Below, piece after piece: positions 1-6,575 of a DNA stretch of 64,000 nt. The position numbers and the translations under genes were made by a program. The stretch is from positions 186,001 to 250,000 of the forward strand of contig CANRNN010000001.1 of NCBI GenBank assembly GCA_947632025.1, in the 5' to 3' direction. Numbering within the stretch: the stretch's first letter is position 1; each line of letters begins with the position of its first letter. Source of the stretch: an uncultured Clostridia bacterium. GTDB taxonomy: Bacteria > Bacillota > Clostridia > Oscillospirales > Ruminococcaceae. The notes under the pieces were generated by a model. That model saw only the letters and a list, made by a program, of their open reading frames with translations, did no database searches and was not told the DNA's origin.

Positions 1-22
1 CGCTTAAAAAATAGCTTTACAA

Positions 23-247
23 TCACAATCTTCCACCCCGTGCAATGGTTTTACATACATCTCCGATTATACCGCAAATCCAATTTAACAAGAAAATAAT
101 AAAAAAGAGTTGAAGCATAAAAGGCAACGTACCAAAAACAAGATCAGCAAAGGTTACACTCTCAAGCTCACCGGAATGCAAAAGAGCCTTAAACCAATCA
201 CCCCAACCTATAAGCTCCAAAAACTTAACGATAGCCATATCATCCAT
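23..247 (-). CDS. Small phage membrane protein (74 aa)
   Basis: Unrecognised by sequence. It has one strong hydrophobic segment at about residues 40-62 (LPFMLQLFFIIFLLNWICG) followed by a basic tail (KTIARGGRL), the layout of inovirus minor coat or assembly proteins. The start ATG at 247 has a GAAGGTAG ribosome site; a second in-frame ATG is at 238. It overlaps the end of the upstream gene by 8 bases, so the two are probably translationally coupled. By position in an Ff-like order it sits between pVI-like proteins and the expected Zot gene. Function unknown. Confidence 0.6.
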   Translation of the reverse strand: MDDMAIVKFLELIGWGDWFKALLHSGELESVTFADLVFGTLPFMLQLFFIIFLLNWICGIIGDVCKTIARGGRL

Positions 248-923
248 AATATTTAACTACCTTCTTTCTGCGGAAAGCCTTACCCACGAGCTTAAACGCA
301 CCGACGATAAGAAAAATAAGGAGAATACCCTCGGTGACAGTATACTCGCTGATCGGCTTTGTCATAATAGTATAATCATCAGCTGGGGACACTCTCTCGA
401 CGATCTCGTGATAACCTTCCGAACCGACAGGATAAAACGGACTATAAGGCGACACGTCAGGAAGTCCATTATCGTCATCATCGACAAGCCACCCCCAGTC
501 AGACTGACCGTCGCCCGTAAAATCCGGCAAAGGTACTAATACATCATCATTTTCACCGTCGCCGTCAAAATCTACAATAAACCCGTTATCGTTGCCGGTA
601 ACAATATCAGTATCAACATACTCGGAGATCTCGAAACCGTCAAGAACCTTATACTGCGGAATTCCAAGACCTATCTCGTTGCCTTTGTTACACAAGCAGT
701 AGCCATCATCAAGGCTGGGGATCAGGGTATCAAGGGTGTAGATCACCTGCTCGGAATCGTTCGCGCCGTCGCCGTCACTGTCGTACTCATAAACGATCTC
801 GGTAATTATGTTCCCTGCAGCGTCAACTGTCTTTTTGATGATGTAATTTATTCCGGTTTCAATAGCCTTAGTAAGAGCAGCATCTAAAGCTTGTAAAACA
901 AGAGCAATAATTATATCTTCCAT
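240..923 (-). CDS. Phage protein with acidic Asp/Gly repeats and C-terminal anchor (227 aa)
   Basis: No family recognised. Four Asp-rich loops resembling calcium-binding loops are visible: DSDGDGANDSE (about 48-58), DFDGDGENDD (about 118-127), DFTGDGQSD (about 134-142) and DDDDNGLPD (about 147-155). A hydrophobic segment (ILLIFLIVGAFKLVG, about 200-214) and a basic tail (RRKKVVK) close the protein, which predicts the acidic part on the outer face. There is no convincing N-terminal signal peptide. It lies in the virion-structure block of the prophage, so a minor virion or host-contact protein is an inference. Calcium binding is predicted from the loops only. Confidence 0.6.
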   Translation of the reverse strand: MEDIIIALVLQALDAALTKAIETGINYIIKKTVDAAGNIITEIVYEYDSDGDGANDSEQVIYTLDTLIPSLDDGYCLCNKGNEIGLGIPQYKVLDGFEISEYVDTDIVTGNDNGFIVDFDGDGENDDVLVPLPDFTGDGQSDWGWLVDDDDNGLPDVSPYSPFYPVGSEGYHEIVERVSPADDYTIMTKPISEYTVTEGILLIFLIVGAFKLVGKAFRRKKVVKYYG

Positions 924-931
924 AATTTACC

Positions 932-1111
932 TCAATCAAAAATTTTACCTAAAAACCAAGCGACAATGGACAAAACCGCAAAACCTATCAAAAGCCTCAG
1001 AGCAGTAATCTTAAAAGAGCCAAAATCGAACAAAACAGAACCGAAAAAGTTCCGTCCGGTATTAAACAACCACTCCCCTACCTCTTTAAAATTACTCAAA
1101 TCAAATGACAT
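932..1111 (-). CDS. Small phage membrane protein (59 aa)
   Basis: Start chosen at the ATG at 1111 (MSFDLSNFKE), which follows a GGTGAG ribosome site; a longer reading to 1147 would overlap the preceding gene. Residues about 34-55 form one membrane span (ITALRLLIGFAVLSIVAW). It lies 4 bases after the adsorption-type protein, the place of pVI in Ff phages, where pVI caps the virion end together with pIII. The pVI-like role is inferred from position and topology only. Confidence 0.55.
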   Translation of the reverse strand: MSFDLSNFKEVGEWLFNTGRNFFGSVLFDFGSFKITALRLLIGFAVLSIVAWFLGKIFD

Positions 1112-1115
1112 GATC

Positions 1116-2795
1116 TCACCGTCCCAAAATACGACCAAGAACAACAAAAGTCAAACCAATACAAAGTAATGTAAAGATCTCAGGCGGACAAAAATCGAAA
1201 AAAGCAGCAAAAAAATGACGAATACCGCTTGATTCTTCAAGAGCAGAATTAAGATACTCATCAAGAGGGTCTGTATTGACATCTACATCAGGAAGCGCAC
1301 CCGTTCCCCCTGCCCCGCCATTAACGTTGATATTGATATCCGGTACACTAACATTAACATCGACACCGACATCAACGGATCCGCTAACATCAATCTGACC
1401 GCCGACTGTCACATTACCACCAACAGTTCCGCCGGAGGAGCTTCCGCCCTCGTTGGTAACGTAGGTATAATTGTTTGTAATGTACTCATTAACGGTCGAG
1501 CTCTGACCTGTATCGGGATTTGTTATCGTATAATCATACACAGTATCGCCCTCAACAGTAATGTAATAGTTATCGGGTATACGCTGAGTATCAATATGAT
1601 AATCAAGCTCAATAGGTGTAGAGCTGCAAAAATACCCCATATCTTCCCCACTGCCGATATCGCAGGATTCGTCATGAGCCGCGACAGACTTACCAAAATG
1701 AGATCCACCAACAGTAGACATATCAAGAGTTAAGCCTAAATCATCGGCACAAACTAAACTACAAAAAACATCAGAAGGTATAGTAAAATATACACCGGAC
1801 TTACGGGTTCTATTAGAAAAATCTTGCAAAGATAGGTACTGTTCGACATAAAAACGACCCTTAGCACTAGAATCAGAAAGAGAGAAATCGAAGTAAGAAT
1901 AATATGAATCAGTACATATATCTTTGGAACCATTAAAATCCTCAAGAGATGGTTCAAACGCTAACCATTCCAGAAACAAATTACTATCGCCGCCACCACC
2001 GGGAACAAAATCTGATATGCTGAAAACAGCGTGAAACTGAAAAGTACCGAAATACATATGATCGCCATCGGTATAATAAGGGATCATATAAATCTCATCG
2101 CCACCGCCGAGAGGAACAAAACCACCTTGTGATAAACTATACCAAGTAAGGCGGGGACAAGTTAAACTATCCCCCTTTTCTGAATATCGAGGATCATTTC
2201 GCCAGCTCATTATATTTCGCGTGTTCTTTGGGGTGCGGGTGGTGTCGGAAGTAATTACGTCCTTAAAGACTTCTGATGGAACAGTAACTGGATCCACAGT
2301 ATTAGGATTTTTAATATCATACTCAAAATCAGACCCTCCTGCAGCTTCATATAAATAACGAGCCTTTGCATATGTACAAAACTCATCCCAATCAATATGA
2401 TGAGATTGCATATAAGTTTGATAATCATACTCCCATTTATATTGCATTAAATAATCATCTGAAAAAGTACCAGAAGAATCAATCATATCAACAGACTTTG
2501 GAGTAGAAAAGCCACAAGTACGAGAATCATCGTAAATATCATAAGCATTTTCTTTACATAGCCCATACCACAAATCAAAATAATCCGAATCAAACTCACC
2601 AGATTCAATCATAGATCTAATATCATCGCCTTCAGAAACAAGATCTACAAAATAATCTACAAATTTCTGATAAAACGGAGATGTTTTATCTAAAGTGGAA
2701 GGAGATGCTTTGTCTAAAGTAAAAGCGGAAACACTCAAACAAACAGAAAAAAATACAAAAACAGAAACTAAACAAAAAGCAGCCACCCTTTTCAA
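1116..2795 (-). CDS. Secreted, membrane-anchored adsorption-type protein (pIII-like)
   Basis: A large protein (about 559 aa) with a signal peptide (LKRVAAFCLVSVFVFFSVC, cleavage near VSA), a long Cys- and Tyr-containing ectodomain, a Ser/Gly linker (GGSSSGG), a Val/Asp-alternating stretch (QIDVSGSVDVGVDVNVSVP), and a C-terminal hydrophobic anchor (FTLLCIGLTFVVLGRILGR). This is the architecture of inovirus pIII: outer receptor-binding domains, flexible linker, membrane/virion anchor. TTG at 2795 is preferred as start because it follows an AAGGGGG ribosome site and puts the signal peptide at the N-terminus; the frame is open to 2846. Sequence identity to known pIII was not tested. Confidence 0.6.
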   Translation of the reverse strand: MKRVAAFCLVSVFVFFSVCLSVSAFTLDKASPSTLDKTSPFYQKFVDYFVDLVSEGDDIRSMIESGEFDSDYFDLWYGLCKENAYDIYDDSRTCGFSTPKSVDMIDSSGTFSDDYLMQYKWEYDYQTYMQSHHIDWDEFCTYAKARYLYEAAGGSDFEYDIKNPNTVDPVTVPSEVFKDVITSDTTRTPKNTRNIMSWRNDPRYSEKGDSLTCPRLTWYSLSQGGFVPLGGGDEIYMIPYYTDGDHMYFGTFQFHAVFSISDFVPGGGGDSNLFLEWLAFEPSLEDFNGSKDICTDSYYSYFDFSLSDSSAKGRFYVEQYLSLQDFSNRTRKSGVYFTIPSDVFCSLVCADDLGLTLDMSTVGGSHFGKSVAAHDESCDIGSGEDMGYFCSSTPIELDYHIDTQRIPDNYYITVEGDTVYDYTITNPDTGQSSTVNEYITNNYTYVTNEGGSSSGGTVGGNVTVGGQIDVSGSVDVGVDVNVSVPDININVNGGAGGTGALPDVDVNTDPLDEYLNSALEESSGIRHFFAAFFDFCPPEIFTLLCIGLTFVVLGRILGR

Positions 2796-2810
2796 AATAA
2801 AACAACCCCC

Positions 2811-2839
2811 TTGACAAAATCCACCAAAAGTATTATAAT
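2811..2839 (+). promoter_or_regulatory. SigA-type promoter of the moron gene
   Basis: TTGACA at 2811-2816 and TATAAT at 2834-2839 with a 17-base spacer, reading right, opposite to the surrounding phage structural genes. It lies just upstream of the start of the leftward adsorption-type gene. Confidence 0.8.
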
Positions 2840-2859
2840 AATACAAGAGGTGATGATAA

Positions 2860-3153
2860 ATGAGTATAAGCTATATCTTAACAATTGTATACATATTCCT
2901 AATAATACACATTTTCAAAAGTGCAAGCAAAGGAATAAACGCATACAAAGAAAAAGAAGTATTAACATTCATAGGAATAGCAGACGGAATATTGAACTTA
3001 ATATTTGTAATTGTAAGTATTATCAAAGGATCATTTGAAAAAACAATGATAACAACAATAATACTTGCAATTATAATGATAACTTTTTGCTGCCTACTGA
3101 ATAAAATTCAAAAAGCGATAATAGACAACTACTATAAAAAACAACAAAAATAA
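2860..3153 (+). CDS. Moron-like membrane protein (97 aa)
   Basis: Unrecognised. About three membrane spans (near 4-18, 38-56 and 65-83) with Lys-rich loops and tail. The ribosome site is GAGGTGAT before ATG 2860. It reads against the structural genes on both sides and has its own consensus promoter (2811-2839) and its own intrinsic terminator (3159-3181), the classic signature of a moron expressed from the prophage. It is very AT-rich. Superinfection exclusion or another lysogen-benefit role is possible but not shown. Confidence 0.7.
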   Translation: MSISYILTIVYIFLIIHIFKSASKGINAYKEKEVLTFIGIADGILNLIFVIVSIIKGSFEKTMITTIILAIIMITFCCLLNKIQKAIIDNYYKKQQK

Positions 3154-3158
3154 ACTAC

Positions 3159-3181
3159 AGACCGCTTCGGCGGTCTTTTTT
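3159..3181 (+). terminator. Intrinsic terminator of the moron gene
   Basis: 7-bp stem AGACCGC/GCGGTCT with a TTCG tetraloop, followed by a run of T. Confidence 0.9.
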
Positions 3182-3253
3182 CTGCTCTTTCTTAGTCACT
3201 GCCGTTCTGATCGGCGCGGCAGTGATTAAGAAAAAACACAAAATGCGGAAAAT

Positions 3254-3279
3254 AAGGGGCAAGGGTAAACTTGCCCCTT
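3254..3279 (-). terminator. Terminator after the major coat gene
   Basis: 10-bp perfect stem AAGGGGCAAG/CTTGCCCCTT with a 6-base loop, followed on the minus strand by T-rich sequence. It sits directly downstream of the coat gene, as the central terminator after gene VIII does in Ff phages. A further hairpin (CACTGCCG/CGGCAGTG, 3197-3225) lies between it and the moron terminator. Confidence 0.8.
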
Positions 3280-3286
3280 TTCCCTG

Positions 3287-3457
3287 TTAGCGACCACGTC
3301 CGAAAGCAGAAACAATCTTACGCAATGATCTGATTGCAAGACCTACAAACGTTACAGAAAGAAACGCAAGTGCAATCTCATTTTCAGCAGCAGAAGAACC
3401 TACATTAGTAATGAGATTTATGAAAGACGTTGAGCCCGTAGTAATTGTTTCCCACAT
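3287..3457 (-). CDS. Major coat protein, inovirus type (56 aa)
   Basis: Architecture of filamentous-phage pVIII: a short N-terminal part, a hydrophobic span (EIALAFLSVTFVGLAIRSL, about residues 26-44) and a basic C-terminus (RKIVSAFGRGR) that would face the packaged DNA. ATG 3457 has an ideal AGGAGG ribosome site 7 bases upstream. A second in-frame ATG at 3523 also has an ideal GGAGG site and would add 22 residues (MPFNILPLVAMSSS...) without a signal-peptide pattern. I take the short form as the coat, inserted without a leader as in Pf3; the long form cannot be excluded. Confidence 0.65.
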   Translation of the reverse strand: MWETITTGSTSFINLITNVGSSAAENEIALAFLSVTFVGLAIRSLRKIVSAFGRGR

Positions 3458-3524
3458 AGTACCACCTCCTTCCAAAGACGGTGACGAAGACATAGCCACC
3501 AAAGGTAAAATATTAAAAGGCATT

Positions 3525-3746
3525 TTACAACCTCCTTTCAAAAACAAAAACACGAAATAAACTTAAAAGACCATAAAAAGCAGCAGTACCAAATAAAACA
3601 GAAACTATAATGATACACAAAGGATTTTCAAGAAACGAGCTGAACAAACCGCCGATAAAATCAGGAAGATCAGAAAAAGAATCAGCTAGTAACTGCCAAG
3701 CTTCATCACAATATTCACCCAACTGCTCATAATAAGAATCGTTCAC
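3525..3746 (-). CDS. Small phage membrane protein (73 aa)
   Basis: Acidic N-terminal half (NDSYYEQLGEYCDEAW), one membrane span (about 43-62, CIIIVSVLFGTAAFYGLLSL) and a basic end (FERRL). The GTG start at 3746 overlaps the stop of the preceding 35-residue gene. Its end is 2 bases before the upstream coat start at 3523. Position matches pIX of Ff phages, although it is about twice as long. Minor coat protein by inference. Confidence 0.6.
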   Translation of the reverse strand: MNDSYYEQLGEYCDEAWQLLADSFSDLPDFIGGLFSSFLENPLCIIIVSVLFGTAAFYGLLSLFRVFVFERRL

Positions 3747-3853
3747 TACTTACCACCTTTACCGCCTTTGCCGACGAAAAGACCGAGAATAAGAAAGATG
3801 ACAAGAAATAAACCGGAAATAATAGTGAGCCATTGAAGAAAAGTCAACAGCAT
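3746..3853 (-). CDS. Tiny phage membrane protein, pVII-like (35 aa)
   Basis: Almost entirely hydrophobic (LLTFLQWLTIISGLFLVIF...) with a Gly/Lys tail (GKGGKGGK). Start ATG 3853 follows an AAGGTGAT ribosome site, 7 bases after the end of the upstream gene; a longer reading to 3931 would run into that gene. Length and place match the 33-residue pVII of Ff phages, which starts virion assembly. Function inferred from order. Confidence 0.5.
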   Translation of the reverse strand: MLLTFLQWLTIISGLFLVIFLILGLFVGKGGKGGK

Positions 3854-3860
3854 AATATTA

Positions 3861-4139
3861 TCACCTTGCCTTAAGTTCCATCGGTTCCAAAATCTCAAAG
3901 CCACAGATGCGACCATTAAGATCCGAATCAAAATCGACCTGAGAAGATACCATCTGATTTAACGTACCTTCGGAAAGACCCAGAGCATTGACTAACTGAG
4001 AAGAAAGGAACTTCTTATCTGCCTTAGTTCCGACAACATGCTCATTTTTTACAAGCATAAACAGATTTACACCGGTAATCCTCTCATTCTGCTGATTCAA
4101 AAAATCTACCTTCTGATAACCTGTTACAAAAACTTTCAT
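3861..4139 (-). CDS. Candidate phage ssDNA-binding protein (92 aa)
   Basis: A small soluble protein beginning MKVFVTGYQKVDFLNQQ and ending in a short beta-rich stretch (GRICGFEILEP). Similar small proteins are common in Gram-positive inovirus-like and rolling-circle elements next to coat genes, where they take the place of gene V protein, which coats the single strand before packaging. I see no diagnostic residues, so the role rests on position, size and a general resemblance. Ribosome site AAGGAGG lies 6-8 bases upstream of the ATG. Confidence 0.45.
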   Translation of the reverse strand: MKVFVTGYQKVDFLNQQNERITGVNLFMLVKNEHVVGTKADKKFLSSQLVNALGLSEGTLNQMVSSQVDFDSDLNGRICGFEILEPMELKAR

Positions 4140-4233
4140 AATAAAACCTCCTTAAGTACCCTGTTATGGGGTGTTAATGTAATATGCCTTGCGGCTGGTA
4201 GTCGTCGTGACCCGGACGACCAACGGGGAGAGA

Positions 4234-4482
4234 TTAAACTAAGGTTTCACGATAATTAAAGCCGTCAAGAAAAACACGAGCTTCATCTTCTGAGGTAAAT
4301 TCAAAAAAATTAACGACACTATAAGAATCAACAGAATAGAACCCGACAGATTCAACGAAATCCTTAAAATCTACCGCCGGCTCATAACCATTATCAAACT
4401 TAAAAAGATAACCTCTAAAAACAGAATGTCGCAAGCCGGAAATATTCTCTTTCAATACAAAACGATAAACTTTTACAAACAT
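4234..4482 (-). CDS. Hypothetical phage protein (82 aa), first gene of the leftward operon
   Basis: Unrecognised soluble protein rich in Phe, Tyr and Val (MFVKVYRFVLKENISG...), with an acidic segment FTSEDEARVFLDGF near the end. It is the first gene after the repressor-controlled divergent promoter region, so it is probably expressed early in induction. The 94 bases between it and the next gene hold a GTCGTCC/GGACGAC-type hairpin near 4200-4222 but no other open frame that I can support. Confidence 0.55.
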   Translation of the reverse strand: MFVKVYRFVLKENISGLRHSVFRGYLFKFDNGYEPAVDFKDFVESVGFYSVDSYSVVNFFEFTSEDEARVFLDGFNYRETLV

Positions 4483-4547
4483 AATTTTTCTTCCTTTCTT
4501 ACTTACCCGGTACAGGGCGAATAATAGACAAAAACTTGTCTAAAAAC

Positions 4548-4600
4548 ATTATAACATAAATTGTTCCAAAATGGAACTGTCAAATGTTCCAAAAAAGAAC
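4548..4600. promoter_or_regulatory. Divergent phage control region with two operators
   Basis: A leftward promoter has an extended -10 (TGTTATAAT on the minus strand, hexamer at 4548-4553). Upstream, GTTCC-AAAAT-GGAAC (4563-4577) is a perfect 5-bp palindrome and GTTCC-AAAAA-AGAAC (4586-4600) a near copy; their centres are 23 bp apart, about two helical turns. The first covers the -35 region of the leftward promoter. They are the natural sites for the adjacent XRE protein. A TAAAAT at 4623-4628 may be the -10 of the repressor gene. Confidence 0.6.
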
Positions 4601-4648
4601 ACAACGAATTATGCAAAAGTGCTAAAATAGAACTAAGGAGGAGTAAAA

Positions 4649-4867
4649 ATGTTGTTCAAGGAAAATTTTGTAACAAACATAAAACGGGCAAGAAAAGATG
4701 CAAAATTAACACAACAAGAAGTAGCAGATAAAATAAACACATCAAGATCTAACATAACAAAATATGAAATAGGACTGCTTGAACCAAACATAGACACCAT
4801 AGGGCAACTAGCCGAACTATACAATGTTAGTACGGATTGGCTTTTTGGAATTAAAAAAACCAACTAG
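4649..4867 (+). CDS. XRE-family phage repressor (72 aa)
   Basis: A single helix-turn-helix domain of the HTH_3/XRE type: RARKDAKLTQQEVADKINTS then RSNITKYEIGLLEPN, with the usual LYNVSTDWLFG C-terminal motif. At 72 aa it is domain-only, like many small lysogeny repressors of Gram-positive phages. Ribosome site AAGGAGGAG is 6 bases upstream. It is divergent from the structural operon across two operator-like palindromes and probably represses it and itself. Confidence 0.85.
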   Translation: MLFKENFVTNIKRARKDAKLTQQEVADKINTSRSNITKYEIGLLEPNIDTIGQLAELYNVSTDWLFGIKKTN

Positions 4868-4879
4868 GAGGAGAAAAAT

Positions 4880-5272
4880 ATGAAAACAGTAATGAAAATA
4901 ACATCGGTTCTCAACATAATCTTCGGACTACATTACTTAACACTTGCAATTATAACAATTTTTGCAACAGGCTTTACAGCATTATTGAGTCTTGCTACAT
5001 TTTCAACAGCGATCATAGGCGGTACGTTAGGATTAATTATAATGGTACTTTTTTGCTTATTACTTACAATCATATATGGAATGGGAGGTATATGGACATT
5101 AAAAGGAGATAAGAAGAAAGCATTATTATGTATGATGATTGCGTTAGGTATATCATTGATATCACTTATTATTGCAATAATACATCCAAAAATAAAAGTA
5201 TCTTTTGTAGATATAATAGCTCTAATTCTACCCATAGTTCACGGATATTTAGTTATACAAACAGAAGAATAA
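4880..5272 (+). CDS. Four-span membrane protein of the prophage (130 aa)
   Basis: Unrecognised. Hydrophobic segments at about residues 8-30, 33-68, 80-100 and 106-124, with a KGDKKK cytosolic loop. It follows the repressor by 12 bases with its own AGGAGGAG ribosome site, so it is expressed from the lysogeny transcript. Genes in this place often give superinfection immunity, but nothing in the sequence proves that. Confidence 0.65.
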   Translation: MKTVMKITSVLNIIFGLHYLTLAIITIFATGFTALLSLATFSTAIIGGTLGLIIMVLFCLLLTIIYGMGGIWTLKGDKKKALLCMMIALGISLISLIIAIIHPKIKVSFVDIIALILPIVHGYLVIQTEE

Positions 5273-5281
5273 AAATACCTC

Positions 5282-5310
5282 TTGACACTTTCATCAAAAA
5301 GTGATATAAT
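5282..5310 (+). promoter_or_regulatory. SigA-type promoter of the 45-aa gene
   Basis: TTGACA 5282-5287, 17-base spacer, TATAAT 5305-5310. Confidence 0.8.
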
Positions 5311-5353
5311 AATCTTACCAAAGATAATGAAATTTGAGTAAGGAGGTGTTCTT

Positions 5354-5491
5354 ATGAACATGACAGAAGTTGCACGCTTGATCCAAGGACTGAGATCTGC
5401 AGGCTGGACTGAAAAACAGATTAACGATTTCCTTATGTGGATCGAATCCGGAGAAGAACAATATAAACCTAAGGATTCAGAGAAAAAGTAA
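5354..5491 (+). CDS. Small conserved-looking protein (45 aa)
   Basis: Reads MNMTEVARLIQGLRSAGW, then TEKQINDFLMWIESG and a charged tail. The first part looks like a helical pair (two short amphipathic helices around AGWTEKQI), as in small DNA-binding or adaptor proteins. It has a perfect promoter (5282-5310), an AAGGAGGTG ribosome site and a dedicated terminator (5498-5525), so it is a complete monocistronic unit. No family name is offered. Confidence 0.65.
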   Translation: MNMTEVARLIQGLRSAGWTEKQINDFLMWIESGEEQYKPKDSEKK

Positions 5492-5497
5492 ATTTTC

Positions 5498-5525
5498 ATT
5501 CTCCCCAAAAAGGGAGAATTTTTTT
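5498..5525 (+). terminator. Intrinsic terminator of the 45-aa gene
   Basis: 8-bp stem ATTCTCCC/GGGAGAAT followed by seven T. Confidence 0.9.
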
Positions 5526-5630
5526 ATTGTCAATTAAATGACATTTTTTTACTTTTCTAAATTTGTAATATATTTCCAATAGCTTATAATTCGTTTTATA
5601 ATGCCATTTTACAATTGTTTGTTTGTAATT

Positions 5631-5735
5631 TGTATGCCCGTATTACTATACGGGCATACAAGCGCCGCTGCGCGGCGGGACGCACGCCCCAGAGGGGTGC
5701 GCTCTCCCCGCCGCGCCGATGAGCGAGGCGGCGCT
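5631..5735. repeat. Two adjacent strong hairpins in non-coding phage-end DNA
   Basis: The first is a perfect 12-bp stem TGTATGCCCGTA/TACGGGCATACA (5631-5660) with loop TTACTA. The second (5661-5735) has three nested helices: AGCGCCGC/GCGGCGCT (outer), GCGCGGCGGG/CCCGCCGCGC (middle) and CGCACGCCCC/GGGGTGCG with one bulge (inner). Its GC content is far above that of the neighbouring phage genes. It could be a packaging or replication signal of the phage, or a dispersed palindromic repeat. The open frames across it look like low-complexity shadows. Between 5526 and 5630 I see nothing. Confidence 0.6.
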
Positions 5736-5779
5736 TTCTCCGTTTTCCCTCGTTTTCCGTCGTGTAATGCTGTCTTGTT

Positions 5780-5998
5780 GTCCATTGACCTCATTATGAG
5801 TTATAGCACATCTGAGAGCATCCGTCAAGGGACGGGTAGTATTTTTTGCTTTGCAAAAAATCTCCACCCTCTGAAATTCGTTTCTGCAAGCTGATAATAC
5901 AATGAAATAACGCGGACAAGACTTAACGCTTGCAGACGTATTTCGCCCTTGACTGATGTTCTCAGATGTGCGTTTTGCTGGTTATGAGGTCAATGGAC
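5780..5998. repeat. Long imperfect inverted repeat with 15-bp perfect ends
   Basis: GTCCATTGACCTCAT (5780-5794) is repeated exactly in inverse at 5984-5998. Inside, GCACATCTGAG (5806-5816) pairs with 5961-5971, a GTCAAGGG block (5824-5831) with 5947-5955, and a further block ending CTGCAAGC (about 5872-5891) with 5929-5945. The whole 219-bp unit folds as one interrupted hairpin. It is coding-free, as in MITE-like elements or phage origin/packaging structures. Confidence 0.65.
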
Positions 5999-6011
5999 AG
6001 ACACGACAAAG

Positions 6012-6037
6012 AGCCCGAAGGGGAAGCTCTTCGGGCT
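6012..6037 (-). terminator. Hairpin downstream of the 19-aa reading frame
   Basis: 9-bp stem AGCCCGAAG/CTTCGGGCT with an 8-base loop. The T-run after it on the minus strand is weak (CTTTGTCG), so termination is only probable. Confidence 0.5.
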
Positions 6038-6067
6038 GTGTGTTATGTCGATCTGGTGGGGGCTTGC

Positions 6068-6127
6068 TTATCCGTCGTCCGCATCGGCGCTTATAACTTC
6101 AAAGTCGAGCCAATCTACTTCTTTCAT
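6068..6127 (-). CDS. Possible 19-residue acidic peptide gene
   Basis: ATG 6127 follows a strong AAAGGTGGTGAT ribosome site and reads MKEVDWLDFEVISADADDG to a TAA; a terminator-like hairpin follows at 6012-6037. Eight of 19 residues are Asp or Glu. It lies between the long inverted repeat and attR. No promoter is clear upstream because that sequence is the tRNA fragment. Short length makes chance plausible; the ribosome site is the main support. Confidence 0.35.
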   Translation of the reverse strand: MKEVDWLDFEVISADADDG

Positions 6128-6153
6128 ATAATCACCACCTTTCTTTTAATCAG

Positions 6154-6187
6154 GGTGTCCCGGGTTCGATTCCCGGGTGGATCACCA
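6154..6187 (+). other. tRNA 3'-end duplicate, probable attR
   Basis: A T arm with perfect stem CCGGG-TTCGATT-CCCGG (6160-6176), the 3' acceptor strand GTGGATC, discriminator A and CCA (6177-6187), with no D arm or anticodon arm upstream. A tRNA-style terminator follows at once. This is what integration into a tRNA 3' end leaves at the distal junction, with the restored intact tRNA at the other junction, left of the window. The acceptor strand predicts a tRNA beginning like G(A/G)TCCAC or GGTTCAC; tRNA-Glu is one option but the identity is not determined. Confidence 0.7.
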
Positions 6188-6193
6188 ACTTAT

Positions 6194-6224
6194 CCCGACG
6201 GAAGTTTCTTTCGTCGGGGTTGTT
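6194..6224 (+). terminator. Terminator after the tRNA 3' fragment
   Basis: Stem CCCGACG/CGTCGGG (6194-6200/6212-6218) extended by A-T pairs, followed by GTTGTTGTTT. Probably the original host terminator of the interrupted tRNA gene. Confidence 0.75.
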
Positions 6225-6263
6225 GTTTATTCTCAGAGCGTGCCTTTTCTCGCTCTTCTATAT

Positions 6264-6340
6264 GCGTCTGTAGCTCAGCTGGATAGAGCAATAGCCTCCG
6301 ACGCTATGTGTCGTGCGTTCGAATCGCATCAGGCGTACCA
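6264..6340 (+). tRNA. tRNA-Arg (anticodon CCG)
   Basis: Full cloverleaf: acceptor GCGTCTG/CAGGCGT (7 pairs with two G-U), D stem GCTC/GAGC, anticodon stem ATAGC/GCTAT with loop CTCCGAC (anticodon CCG at 6298-6300, reads CGG), T stem GTGCG/CGCAT with loop TTCGAAT, discriminator A and encoded CCA (6338-6340). Confidence 0.95.
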
Positions 6341-6391
6341 GCCGGTATGACCGGCAGCAAGTTCGTCTCGCAGATCGCTGCGGGACGTTTT
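6339..6391 (+). terminator. tRNA-Arg terminator, copy 1 of a 53-bp direct repeat
   Basis: Two hairpins: GCCGGTATGACCGGC and GTCTCGCAG/CTGCGGGAC (6365-6386) followed by GTTTTGTTTT. The 53-bp unit recurs at 6435-6487 with four differences. Confidence 0.75.
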
Positions 6392-6434
6392 GTTTTCTCT
6401 CGACTTCTGGGCAATCTTTTTTGCAAAGGTTAGA

Positions 6435-6487
6435 CAGCCGGTATGGCCGGCGGCAAGTTCGTCTCGCAGGTCGCTGCGGGACATTTT
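6435..6487 (+). repeat. Second copy of the 53-bp terminator unit
   Basis: Same two-hairpin unit as 6339-6391 (four mismatches in 53), followed by ATTTTCTTTT. No tRNA body precedes it; the 43 bases between the copies contain no gene that I can see. Probably a duplication that lost its tRNA, or a dispersed terminator. Confidence 0.7.
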
Positions 6488-6575
6488 CTTTTACTCGGAT
6501 TTTGTGTTATCTTTCCCGGTAAAATTTAGGGAAGCTGCAGTACCGCCAATGACATAACACTTACTATCTTACCTC

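Follow-up and report, generated by a model that had tools for sequence, protein, structure and literature searches.

Inoviruses of Clostridia are already in print (PMC6813254, PMC9723715, PMC10061712). From the pig virome 344 inovirus contigs were described, of which 272 were circular and 181 of the 344 encoded a B5-type gpI, and Firmicute hosts were predicted (PMC9723715). Secreted filaments of approximately 6-8 nm from Clostridia (Enterocloster) have been imaged, and two Gram-positive inovirus host species were counted before five were added (PMC10061712). Hence, the statement that inoviruses of Gram-positive hosts are sparsely described, made in an earlier reading of the present DNA (the first-pass annotation), is no longer that appropriate in view of these three papers; few of them have been handled in the laboratory (PMC10061712). 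The present study concerns a 64-kb stretch, referred to as the window (C1:186001-250000), of a 2.36-Mb Clostridia genome of 31 contigs (G000). According to its sequence, a complete-looking inovirus (filamentous-phage) genome of 9.5 kb is integrated at a tRNA gene, and its right two thirds make up the left end of the window; the element reaches 3.1 kb beyond the left edge, and this part is contained in L001, the 20 kb around that edge (window position = L001 position - 14000). We assign it, with a probability of about 0.92, to the temperate filamentous phages (inoviruses, Tubulavirales), with a monoderm member of the Clostridia as host; it was presumably integrated by its own tyrosine integrase in the 3' part of tRNA-Lys. 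The sequence itself shows the gene set and its order, the repeat at the attachment (att) sites, a conserved hairpin, the paralogy of two coat genes and one domain swap.

The element shares with the clostridial gut inoviruses of Enterocloster/Hungatella (PMC10061712) and the pig virome (PMC9723715) an anaerobic Gram-positive host, the pI ATPase and flanking direct repeats, however, the Enterocloster/Hungatella phages measure by description 6.5-8.5 kb (one 16 kb) compared to 9.5 kb here (PMC10061712). In the phage collection, which includes six records of the pig-type 'Inovirus sp.', the Zot protein matched 13 records, the best at 23-30% identity, and the Rep protein five at 27-32%, while the adsorption protein had no match there. 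Four of the five Rep-matching records were examined, all deposited as Inoviridae, with related Zot and Rep in four and a related coat in three; these coat matches came from a profile in which the coat and 73-aa families were mixed. The circular genomes of Dulem virus 51 (PP511381), Dulem virus 64 (PP511650), bajarodino virus 80 (PQ006114) and bajarodino virus 52 (PQ006128) combine, as here, Zot with a Rep_trans-type Rep; Dulem virus 51 also has a recombinase, and the first three carry the origin-loop core CCGTATTAC treated below. These four Inoviridae, which stem from faecal viromes, differ in that their Rep is 27-32% identical and no adsorption-profile match was obtained. Among plasmids, Zot matched 12 records, mostly of Streptococcus and below 60% identity. 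The single-protein search with Zot gave no match in IMG/VR; by alignment ten contigs of 4.4-9.7 kb were found there (nine with Zot, one more with Rep, none new with the adsorption protein). L069 was dropped as a circular contig, since its ends overlap over 949 bp at only 95% identity.

The prophage is real, complete in the expected gene content and bounded, and represents a further inovirus of the already known, little-studied Gram-positive kind. Interest is added by the conserved origin hairpin, by the modularity of the adsorption gene, by the two paralogous coats and by an export set that is so bare. As its att sites are bounded, a repressor is present, a candidate origin is defined by sequence and approximately ten relatives occur in the genus, it permits concrete test questions, such as where the initiator nicks, whether an export ATPase that lacks an outer part is functional and by which domain the host range is determined.

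The inovirus prophage proposed by the first-pass annotation was borne out left of position 1, where the Zot/pI-type ATPase, the Rep_trans initiator, the tyrosine integrase and an intact tRNA-Lys are all situated. The export ATPase (282 aa, minus strand, L001:13178-14026 = C1:185178-186026, its start being positions 1-26 of the window) was expected within about 4 kb to the left, and it was found there. It was recognized by PHROG 197 ('Zot-like toxin', E 5.6e-9). In an alignment of 11 Zot sequences, the others being 38-80% identical to the G000 protein, the Walker A and B motifs G-x-GKT and DE-GT are invariant (11/11), and ten of the 11 match Pfam Zot at E <= 0.01 (best 3.2e-8); the only match of the Zot profile in a PDB sequence search was 2r2a (E 0.019). 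The rolling-circle initiator (456 aa, L001:11887-13257, minus strand) belongs to PF02486 Rep_trans (E 2.5e-30) and the integrase (306 aa, L001:10995-11915, minus strand) to PF00589 Phage_integrase (E 8.6e-34). Rep_trans is used by many inoviruses, and replication modules are exchanged (PMC6668415). The genes other than Zot, Rep, integrase and repressor showed no convincing match in the family searches. Together with the att repeats, the low GC content and the conserved synteny, the three enzymes argue for an inovirus.

The same enzymes might be read as a small integrative mobilisable or conjugative element, in which Rep_trans would act as a relaxase like MobT and the ATPase would be a coupling protein of the FtsK/HerA type. 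In favor of this, Rep matches NCBIfam MobT (E 3.6e-11) and five of the 11 Zot relatives match AAA as well; however, the 42.5 bits of the MobT match are far below the curated cut-off of 600 bits. Apart from this MobT match, no conjugation or type IV secretion system gene was matched among the 16 open reading frames (ORFs) scanned. Moreover, genes for coat, minor coat and adsorption-type proteins accompany Zot in different species, and Rep relatives occur in circular genomes deposited as Inoviridae, hence we regard the mobile-element explanation as very improbable.

A single-protein search with Zot found matches in 13 of 150 genomes, and the Zot alignment in 10/43 genomes of the genus, 32/297 of the family and 16/391 of the class, the own genome being counted each time. 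The gene order coat, adsorption-like protein, p71, p227, Zot, Rep, Int recurs in relatives of the same genus and family where contigs are long enough; L025, L027, L028 and L029 match it in part only.

Some members of the set carry additional or different initiators. At L017:12828-13619 (minus strand), a prophage locus of G021, a second, shorter Rep_trans protein with Rol_Rep_N is encoded upstream of the coat besides the full Rep. An SF3-type helicase part (PF00910) was found on the Rep of two related clostridial inovirus-like elements, L118:5700-6722 (minus strand, G267) and L120:11112-12332 (plus strand, G328); the L118 Rep also matches Viral_Rep PF02407 below its cut-off, hairpins with TAGTATTAC are present in both loci, and L118 holds another element with a G2P-type Rep. 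One inovirus Rep family with an S3H motif has been reported (PMC6813254).

The element is bounded by a repeat at its ends. The longest exact repeat between them comprises 198 bp (L001:10656-10853 = window 6143-6340), begins within tRNA-Lys and stops at the final base of tRNA-Arg; one repeat plus the interior amounts to 9,487 bp. The left copy contains the end of an intact tRNA-Lys (L001:10625-10700, plus strand) and an intact tRNA-Arg (L001:10777-10853, plus strand). The right copy (plus strand), identical over 198 bp, holds only the 3' part of tRNA-Lys (6143-6188), the spacer and tRNA-Arg (6264-6340). The first-pass annotation had recognized a tRNA attachment site, which holds true, and the tRNA-Lys 3' piece begins at 6143; however, the repeat runs through tRNA-Arg to 6340 and does not end at 6187. 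With a GC content of 38.5%, the element is lower than the remainder of the window (46.8%) and the DNA on its left side (48.2%).

A related prophage, whose Zot is 80% identical, adjoins tRNA-Lys in G021, which is a second species, and there an exact repeat of 216 bp with the same tRNA-Lys start base bounds approximately 11.0 kb; it passes the tRNA into the 3' end of an integrase frame, whereas here the repeat passes into tRNA-Arg. The G003 contig (L019) has the order origin hairpin, 3' tRNA-Lys, spacer, tRNA-Arg, integrase, which is the junction expected of a circle or a tandem. Inovirus genomes, of about 5-20 kb, are circular in the free state, and G003 is the one relative in which such a junction was seen. 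From the comparison of these three genomes, the crossover would therefore take place in tRNA-Lys. The neighboring tRNA-Arg(CCG) is also within the attachment region in two of the three phages. In sister genomes (e.g. G016, G032, G014; approximately 79% over the stretch) tRNA-Lys and tRNA-Arg are adjacent as well, which shows that the piece carried in the att region is of host origin. When the joined flanks, i.e. the empty site, were compared, five of 12 sister loci matched (plus strand only); the same loci also match the occupied left side because the two 198-bp copies are identical.

Further features were noticed around the att sites. Right of the G021 prophage (L017:16444-16746) the 216-bp repeat runs into a 57-aa integrase remnant, as if a second phage began there with its left end. 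At 6340-6520, immediately adjoining the prophage on its right side, tandem REP-like hairpins (AGCCGGTATG(A/G)CCGGC..GCGGGAC) were seen by eye. Also by eye, a diverged version of the host sequence following the right end was found to follow the left tRNA-Arg, and it suggests that the phage may carry more host DNA than the exact repeat. A micro-ORF of 19 aa (MKEVDWLDFEVISADADDG, 6068-6127, minus strand) with a strong ribosome-binding site is followed by a terminator-like hairpin (6012-6037). Such micro-ORFs (approximately 15-20 aa, DW[LI]D...DAD motif) lie beside att in three of 38 scanned loci, which are the three tRNA-Lys prophages (counterparts L019:562-609 and L017:16361-16420, both minus strand); in a circular form the micro-ORF would sit just downstream of the integrase, with attP splitting the two. 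Between origin and att, at 5771-6008, a long imperfect inverted repeat is situated (arms approximately 60 bp, 83%, core 115 bp). It had no other copy in the own genome or in 60 other genomes searched, and its interpretation as a multi-copy miniature inverted-repeat transposable element was dropped on account of the missing second copy in the genome.

Alternatively, the element might be a decayed inovirus without particle formation, maintained on account of the repressor and the accessory membrane proteins that it encodes. Its single copy and the uncultured host would agree with this. However, all genes listed here on the minus strand (23-4482) and the plus strand (2860-5491) represent open frames, several with ribosome-binding sites, the att copies are identical over 198 bp, the same gene set exists in relatives, and one of these (G003) shows the circle-or-tandem junction. 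We therefore consider decay improbable.

A candidate origin of replication was found in the non-coding end, as a hairpin at 5629-5662 (stem TTGTATGCCCG, loop TATTACTATA; perfect at 5630-5661), after which GC-rich inverted repeats extend to approximately 5736. Its pattern (<=3 mismatches) occurs in three of 43 genus genomes, once each and within a prophage, with 0 matches of the reversed control. When 38 loci were scanned for hairpins whose loop contains TATTAC or TTTTAC, 19 rows were obtained. Ten of the 38 loci share the form CCG-T[AT]TTAC[CT]A-...-GG (G000, L017, L019, L020, L021, L023, L024, L026, L028, L030), with a closing CGG in eight of them and shorter loops plus a mismatch at this place in L020 and L021; the other nine rows do not have this form, and in the other 28 loci either the end may be missing or the origin may differ. 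In seven of the ten, a repressor frame on the same contig (besides G000 itself) or a position beyond it was found. A perfect stem of at least 8 pairs is present in eight of the ten, compared to 0.02 expected in first-order resamples, for a pattern chosen after the motif had been seen. When the seven sequences with equal loops were aligned, 98.6% of the cells were paired and 7/10 stem pairs were changed on both sides. The covariation score for these seven sequences was 0.757 versus 0.167, a value reached in 0/500 shuffles and by none of the slid controls (<=0.281). The loop core T[AT]TTAC is kept while the stem varies. The exact pattern of the three nearest prophages had 0 matches in IMG/VR, which is expected if stems drift.

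The core CCGTATTAC[CT] is also present in a hairpin of three of the four named circular Inoviridae, Dulem virus 51, Dulem virus 64 and bajarodino virus 80, in a scan run without shuffle control; bajarodino virus 52, MT839279 and the remaining 14 scanned loci did not show it. The hairpin is located just upstream of rep in two of the three viruses that have it, bajarodino virus 80 and Dulem virus 64. The plasmids of the pT181 family use the same initiator family PF02486, and their origin is an extruded hairpin or cruciform that exposes the nick site (PMC5703833, PMC5775427); in contrast, the candidate origin here is outside rep and its loop sequence is its own. Hence, the hairpin is likely the double-strand replication origin, probably nicked at the loop. 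It might alternatively serve as a packaging signal or as a transcription feature. Packaging signals of the Ff type are likewise hairpins, and the GC-rich inverted repeats that come after it would fit such a role. However, a conserved loop on a varying stem is the pattern expected of a nicked loop, and the position before rep in two Inoviridae as well as the cruciform nicking by Rep_trans plasmid initiators (PMC5703833, PMC5775427) point in the same direction, which makes a role other than the nick site rather unlikely. Among the matches listed, in which subscription journals and preprints were not covered, no paper was plainly about the origin or the wall passage of inoviruses of this group, which is not proof of absence. 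The replication-origin loop could also help to recognize the non-coding end in phages of this type. The CRESS-type nonanucleotide motif was used for a comparison of origin loops; kinship with it is not claimed, because the two groups, as far as compared, differ in the strand that carries TATTAC with respect to the genes.

The virion genes were placed correctly by the first-pass annotation, namely the 92-aa, 35-aa and 73-aa proteins, the coat, the terminator, the 576-aa anchored protein and the small membrane protein. Its analogy with the Ff order V-VII-IX-VIII-III-VI stands for order, size and topology, whereas no match to a known inovirus coat or pIII family was obtained. The likeness to the Ff phages (M13/f1/fd) includes an anchored receptor protein with a Gly-rich linker; they differ in that no sequence kinship was found and that here a Rep_trans initiator, an integrase and a repressor are present and no secretin gene was seen. 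The major coat (3287-3523, minus strand) has a membrane helix and the basic C-terminus GRGR. There are two in-frame starts (3523 and 3457), which would give 78 or 56 aa; AAGGAGG precedes each of them by 7 nt. Such double starts with ribosome-binding sites were seen in G000, L017 and L030 among 13 loci examined, and L026 has the internal one; the leaders vary, being Sec-like by eye in L022, L023 and L026 and absent or a short remnant in G000, L017, L030 and L024. The product resembles an inovirus coat by form and place, i.e. short, with one membrane helix, basic at the C-terminus and near the ATPase, without homology to a known coat family. The 73-aa minor coat (3525-3746, minus strand) is a paralogue of the major coat: an unmixed coat profile (6 sequences, the G000 row minus its first residue) matched the 73-aa profile (5 sequences) with 92.7% probability (E 4.4e-7), while the other nine pairs among five membrane-segment profiles reached at most 11.6%. 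Unmixed profiles were used for this comparison; an iterative profile had merged the two families. The 35-aa membrane peptide (3746-3853, minus strand) is pVII/pIX-like by size. The 92-aa protein (3861-4139, minus strand), which is related to proteins of L024, of L028 and of Dulem virus 64 (profile E 1.8e-7), takes the place of the single-stranded DNA (ssDNA)-binding protein pV, however, this earlier label could not be confirmed, as no convincing family match was obtained.

Several observations weigh against our assignment. The Pfam Zot score of the ATPase is 16.5 bits, under the cut-off of 20.3, and a genome search with this model missed the protein (0/1). The same model matches in five of 14 control genomes, three of them archaeal, and therefore Zot alone proves little. 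The profile searches suggested in the first-pass annotation were successful for Zot through PHROG 197 and gave no coat family match; none of its virion-type proteins could be matched to an established family of inovirus coats or of pIII. Fold models were unusable for the adsorption protein (pLDDT 36.5, 4 sequences) and for the 92-aa protein (pLDDT 42.2, single sequence). Finally, the G003 junction is compatible with a tandem prophage.

The 576-aa adsorption-type (pIII-like) protein (1116-2846, minus strand) consists of a signal segment, a front and a middle that both vary, the middle being beta-rich (from an unreliable model), a Gly/Val/Asn-rich linker and a C-terminal membrane anchor ending GR; its profile found no PDB sequence match. 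Between G000 and L017 it is 29% identical, compared to 80% for Zot and 54% for Rep. The two prophages of G021, whose Zot proteins are 46% identical, share within the adsorption-like gene a block of 847 bp at 93.3% identity; their next best blocks, elsewhere, extend over 358 bp (76% identity) and 137 bp (79%). Eight pairs of co-resident prophages were compared for such a swap, and only for G021 and G267 does the adsorption profile recognize the gene in both members. In these clean tests G021 shows the swap and G267 none (25% identical). For G381 and G257, less than 1.3 kb precedes Zot on one contig or both, which places the adsorption gene off the contig; G324 has an unrecognized 410/390-aa gene in a similar place, 40% identical, in flanking DNA of 81-90% identity; G328, G165 and G337 showed no such swapped block. 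The 100% blocks for G267 and G165 represent the overlap of two clipped windows. The domain swap as a rule between co-resident prophages was rejected, given one clear case (G021), and this one event points to the adsorption protein as a modular receptor domain that may change fast.

The host was proposed to be Gram-positive and spore-forming, and both assumptions agree with the data. The sporulation regulator was found (Spo0A_C E 6.5e-46), a sister genome is a metagenome-assembled genome of an uncultured Clostridia bacterium (CAMNXF010000005.1), and secretin PF00263 had 0 matches in the own genome, while the control found it in six of 14 genomes. The pIV-type secretin of secretin-dependent (diderm) inoviruses is accordingly not present among the matches. 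In ten of the 11 Zot proteins the most hydrophobic 17-residue stretch is within the first 45 residues (1.18-1.97); L022 is the exception with 0.94 there and 1.14 elsewhere. No stretch past residue 45 exceeded 1.18 in the 11 proteins, i.e. no C-terminal membrane segment or outer domain is evident, and Zot here ends without the outer domain of Ff pI. A wall hydrolase domain was likewise not found among the 16 ORFs scanned. Absences in family searches are weak evidence because most virion genes match no family. Since neither secretin nor hydrolase nor a Zot outer domain was recognized, the most economical view would be a passage of the thin filament through gaps that the wall already has. It might be possible, although we offer this only tentatively and with more doubt than trust, that these features belong together in a family-level monoderm inovirus lineage. 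Export would then be achieved by a membrane motor and coats alone (pI without a part outside the membrane, no secretin in phage or host, no wall enzyme), the filament would cross the thick wall unaided, the origin with fixed loop and drifting stem would be common with circular animal-gut Inoviridae, and the adsorption domain and even the whole initiator (Rep_trans, G2P-type, SF3-helicase-bearing Rep) would be swapped between members.

Excision, loop nicking, single-strand packaging, extrusion and the role of each virion protein are what we infer for the life cycle. The repressor would keep the leftward operon off until induction, when the phage would excise as a circle. Rep_trans would nick the loop of the hairpin at 5629-5662 and produce single strands by rolling circle, which the 92-aa protein would coat. 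At the inner face of the membrane the Zot/pI ATPase would exchange this protein for the small coats and extrude the filament, capped by the 576-aa adsorption protein and small partners.

The switch assumed in this scheme is situated between divergent genes. The cI/Cro-type repressor (72 aa, 4649-4867, plus strand) was rightly predicted (HTH_3, E 4.9e-16). The three operator-like palindromes before it (4563-4577, 4586-4600, 4619-4633) do exist, however, their number is unremarkable: seven matches with <=3 mismatches in the whole window compare to 2.87 expected, and seven were reached by 5/100 shuffles, therefore only their clustering is notable. The leftward operon begins with an 82-aa protein (4234-4482, minus strand). 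Rightward, a 130-aa membrane protein (4880-5272, plus strand) adjoins the repressor, with a homologue at the same place in L026, followed by a 45-aa small protein (5354-5491, plus strand) with homologues in L023 and L129. The moron of the first-pass annotation, a 97-aa membrane protein (2860-3153, plus strand), indeed has its own promoter-like site (2811-2839, 12/12 match; 28 such sites in the stretch versus 10.6 expected) and an intrinsic-terminator-like hairpin (3159-3176), found on both strands; its homologue lies beside the repressor in L030. Downstream of the adsorption gene, all on the minus strand, follow the 71-aa small membrane protein p71 (932-1147), pVI-like by place only, the 227-aa membrane-anchored protein p227 (240-923), with Asp/Gly-rich repeats that look calcium-binding by eye and a C-terminal anchor with a YTVTEG-like motif kept in relatives, and a 74-aa hydrophobic membrane protein (23-247) with clear homologues only in the closest relatives, L017, L018 and L019, and the IMG/VR contigs L067 and L068.

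Two repeats were seen in relatives. An inverted repeat of 11-17 bp with the core ATT(G/T)CGTAAAA...TTTTACG(C/A)AAT occurs near int in L020, L022, L023, L024, L030, L067 and L068, at or before the other, approximately 350-aa integrase type, and might be an attachment or binding site. In L030, a 50-bp sequence with a GTCCG..CGGAC hairpin is present in approximately four copies between genes (3408-3459, 5141-5189, 6030-6083, near 4040), and one further copy is found in the co-resident prophage.

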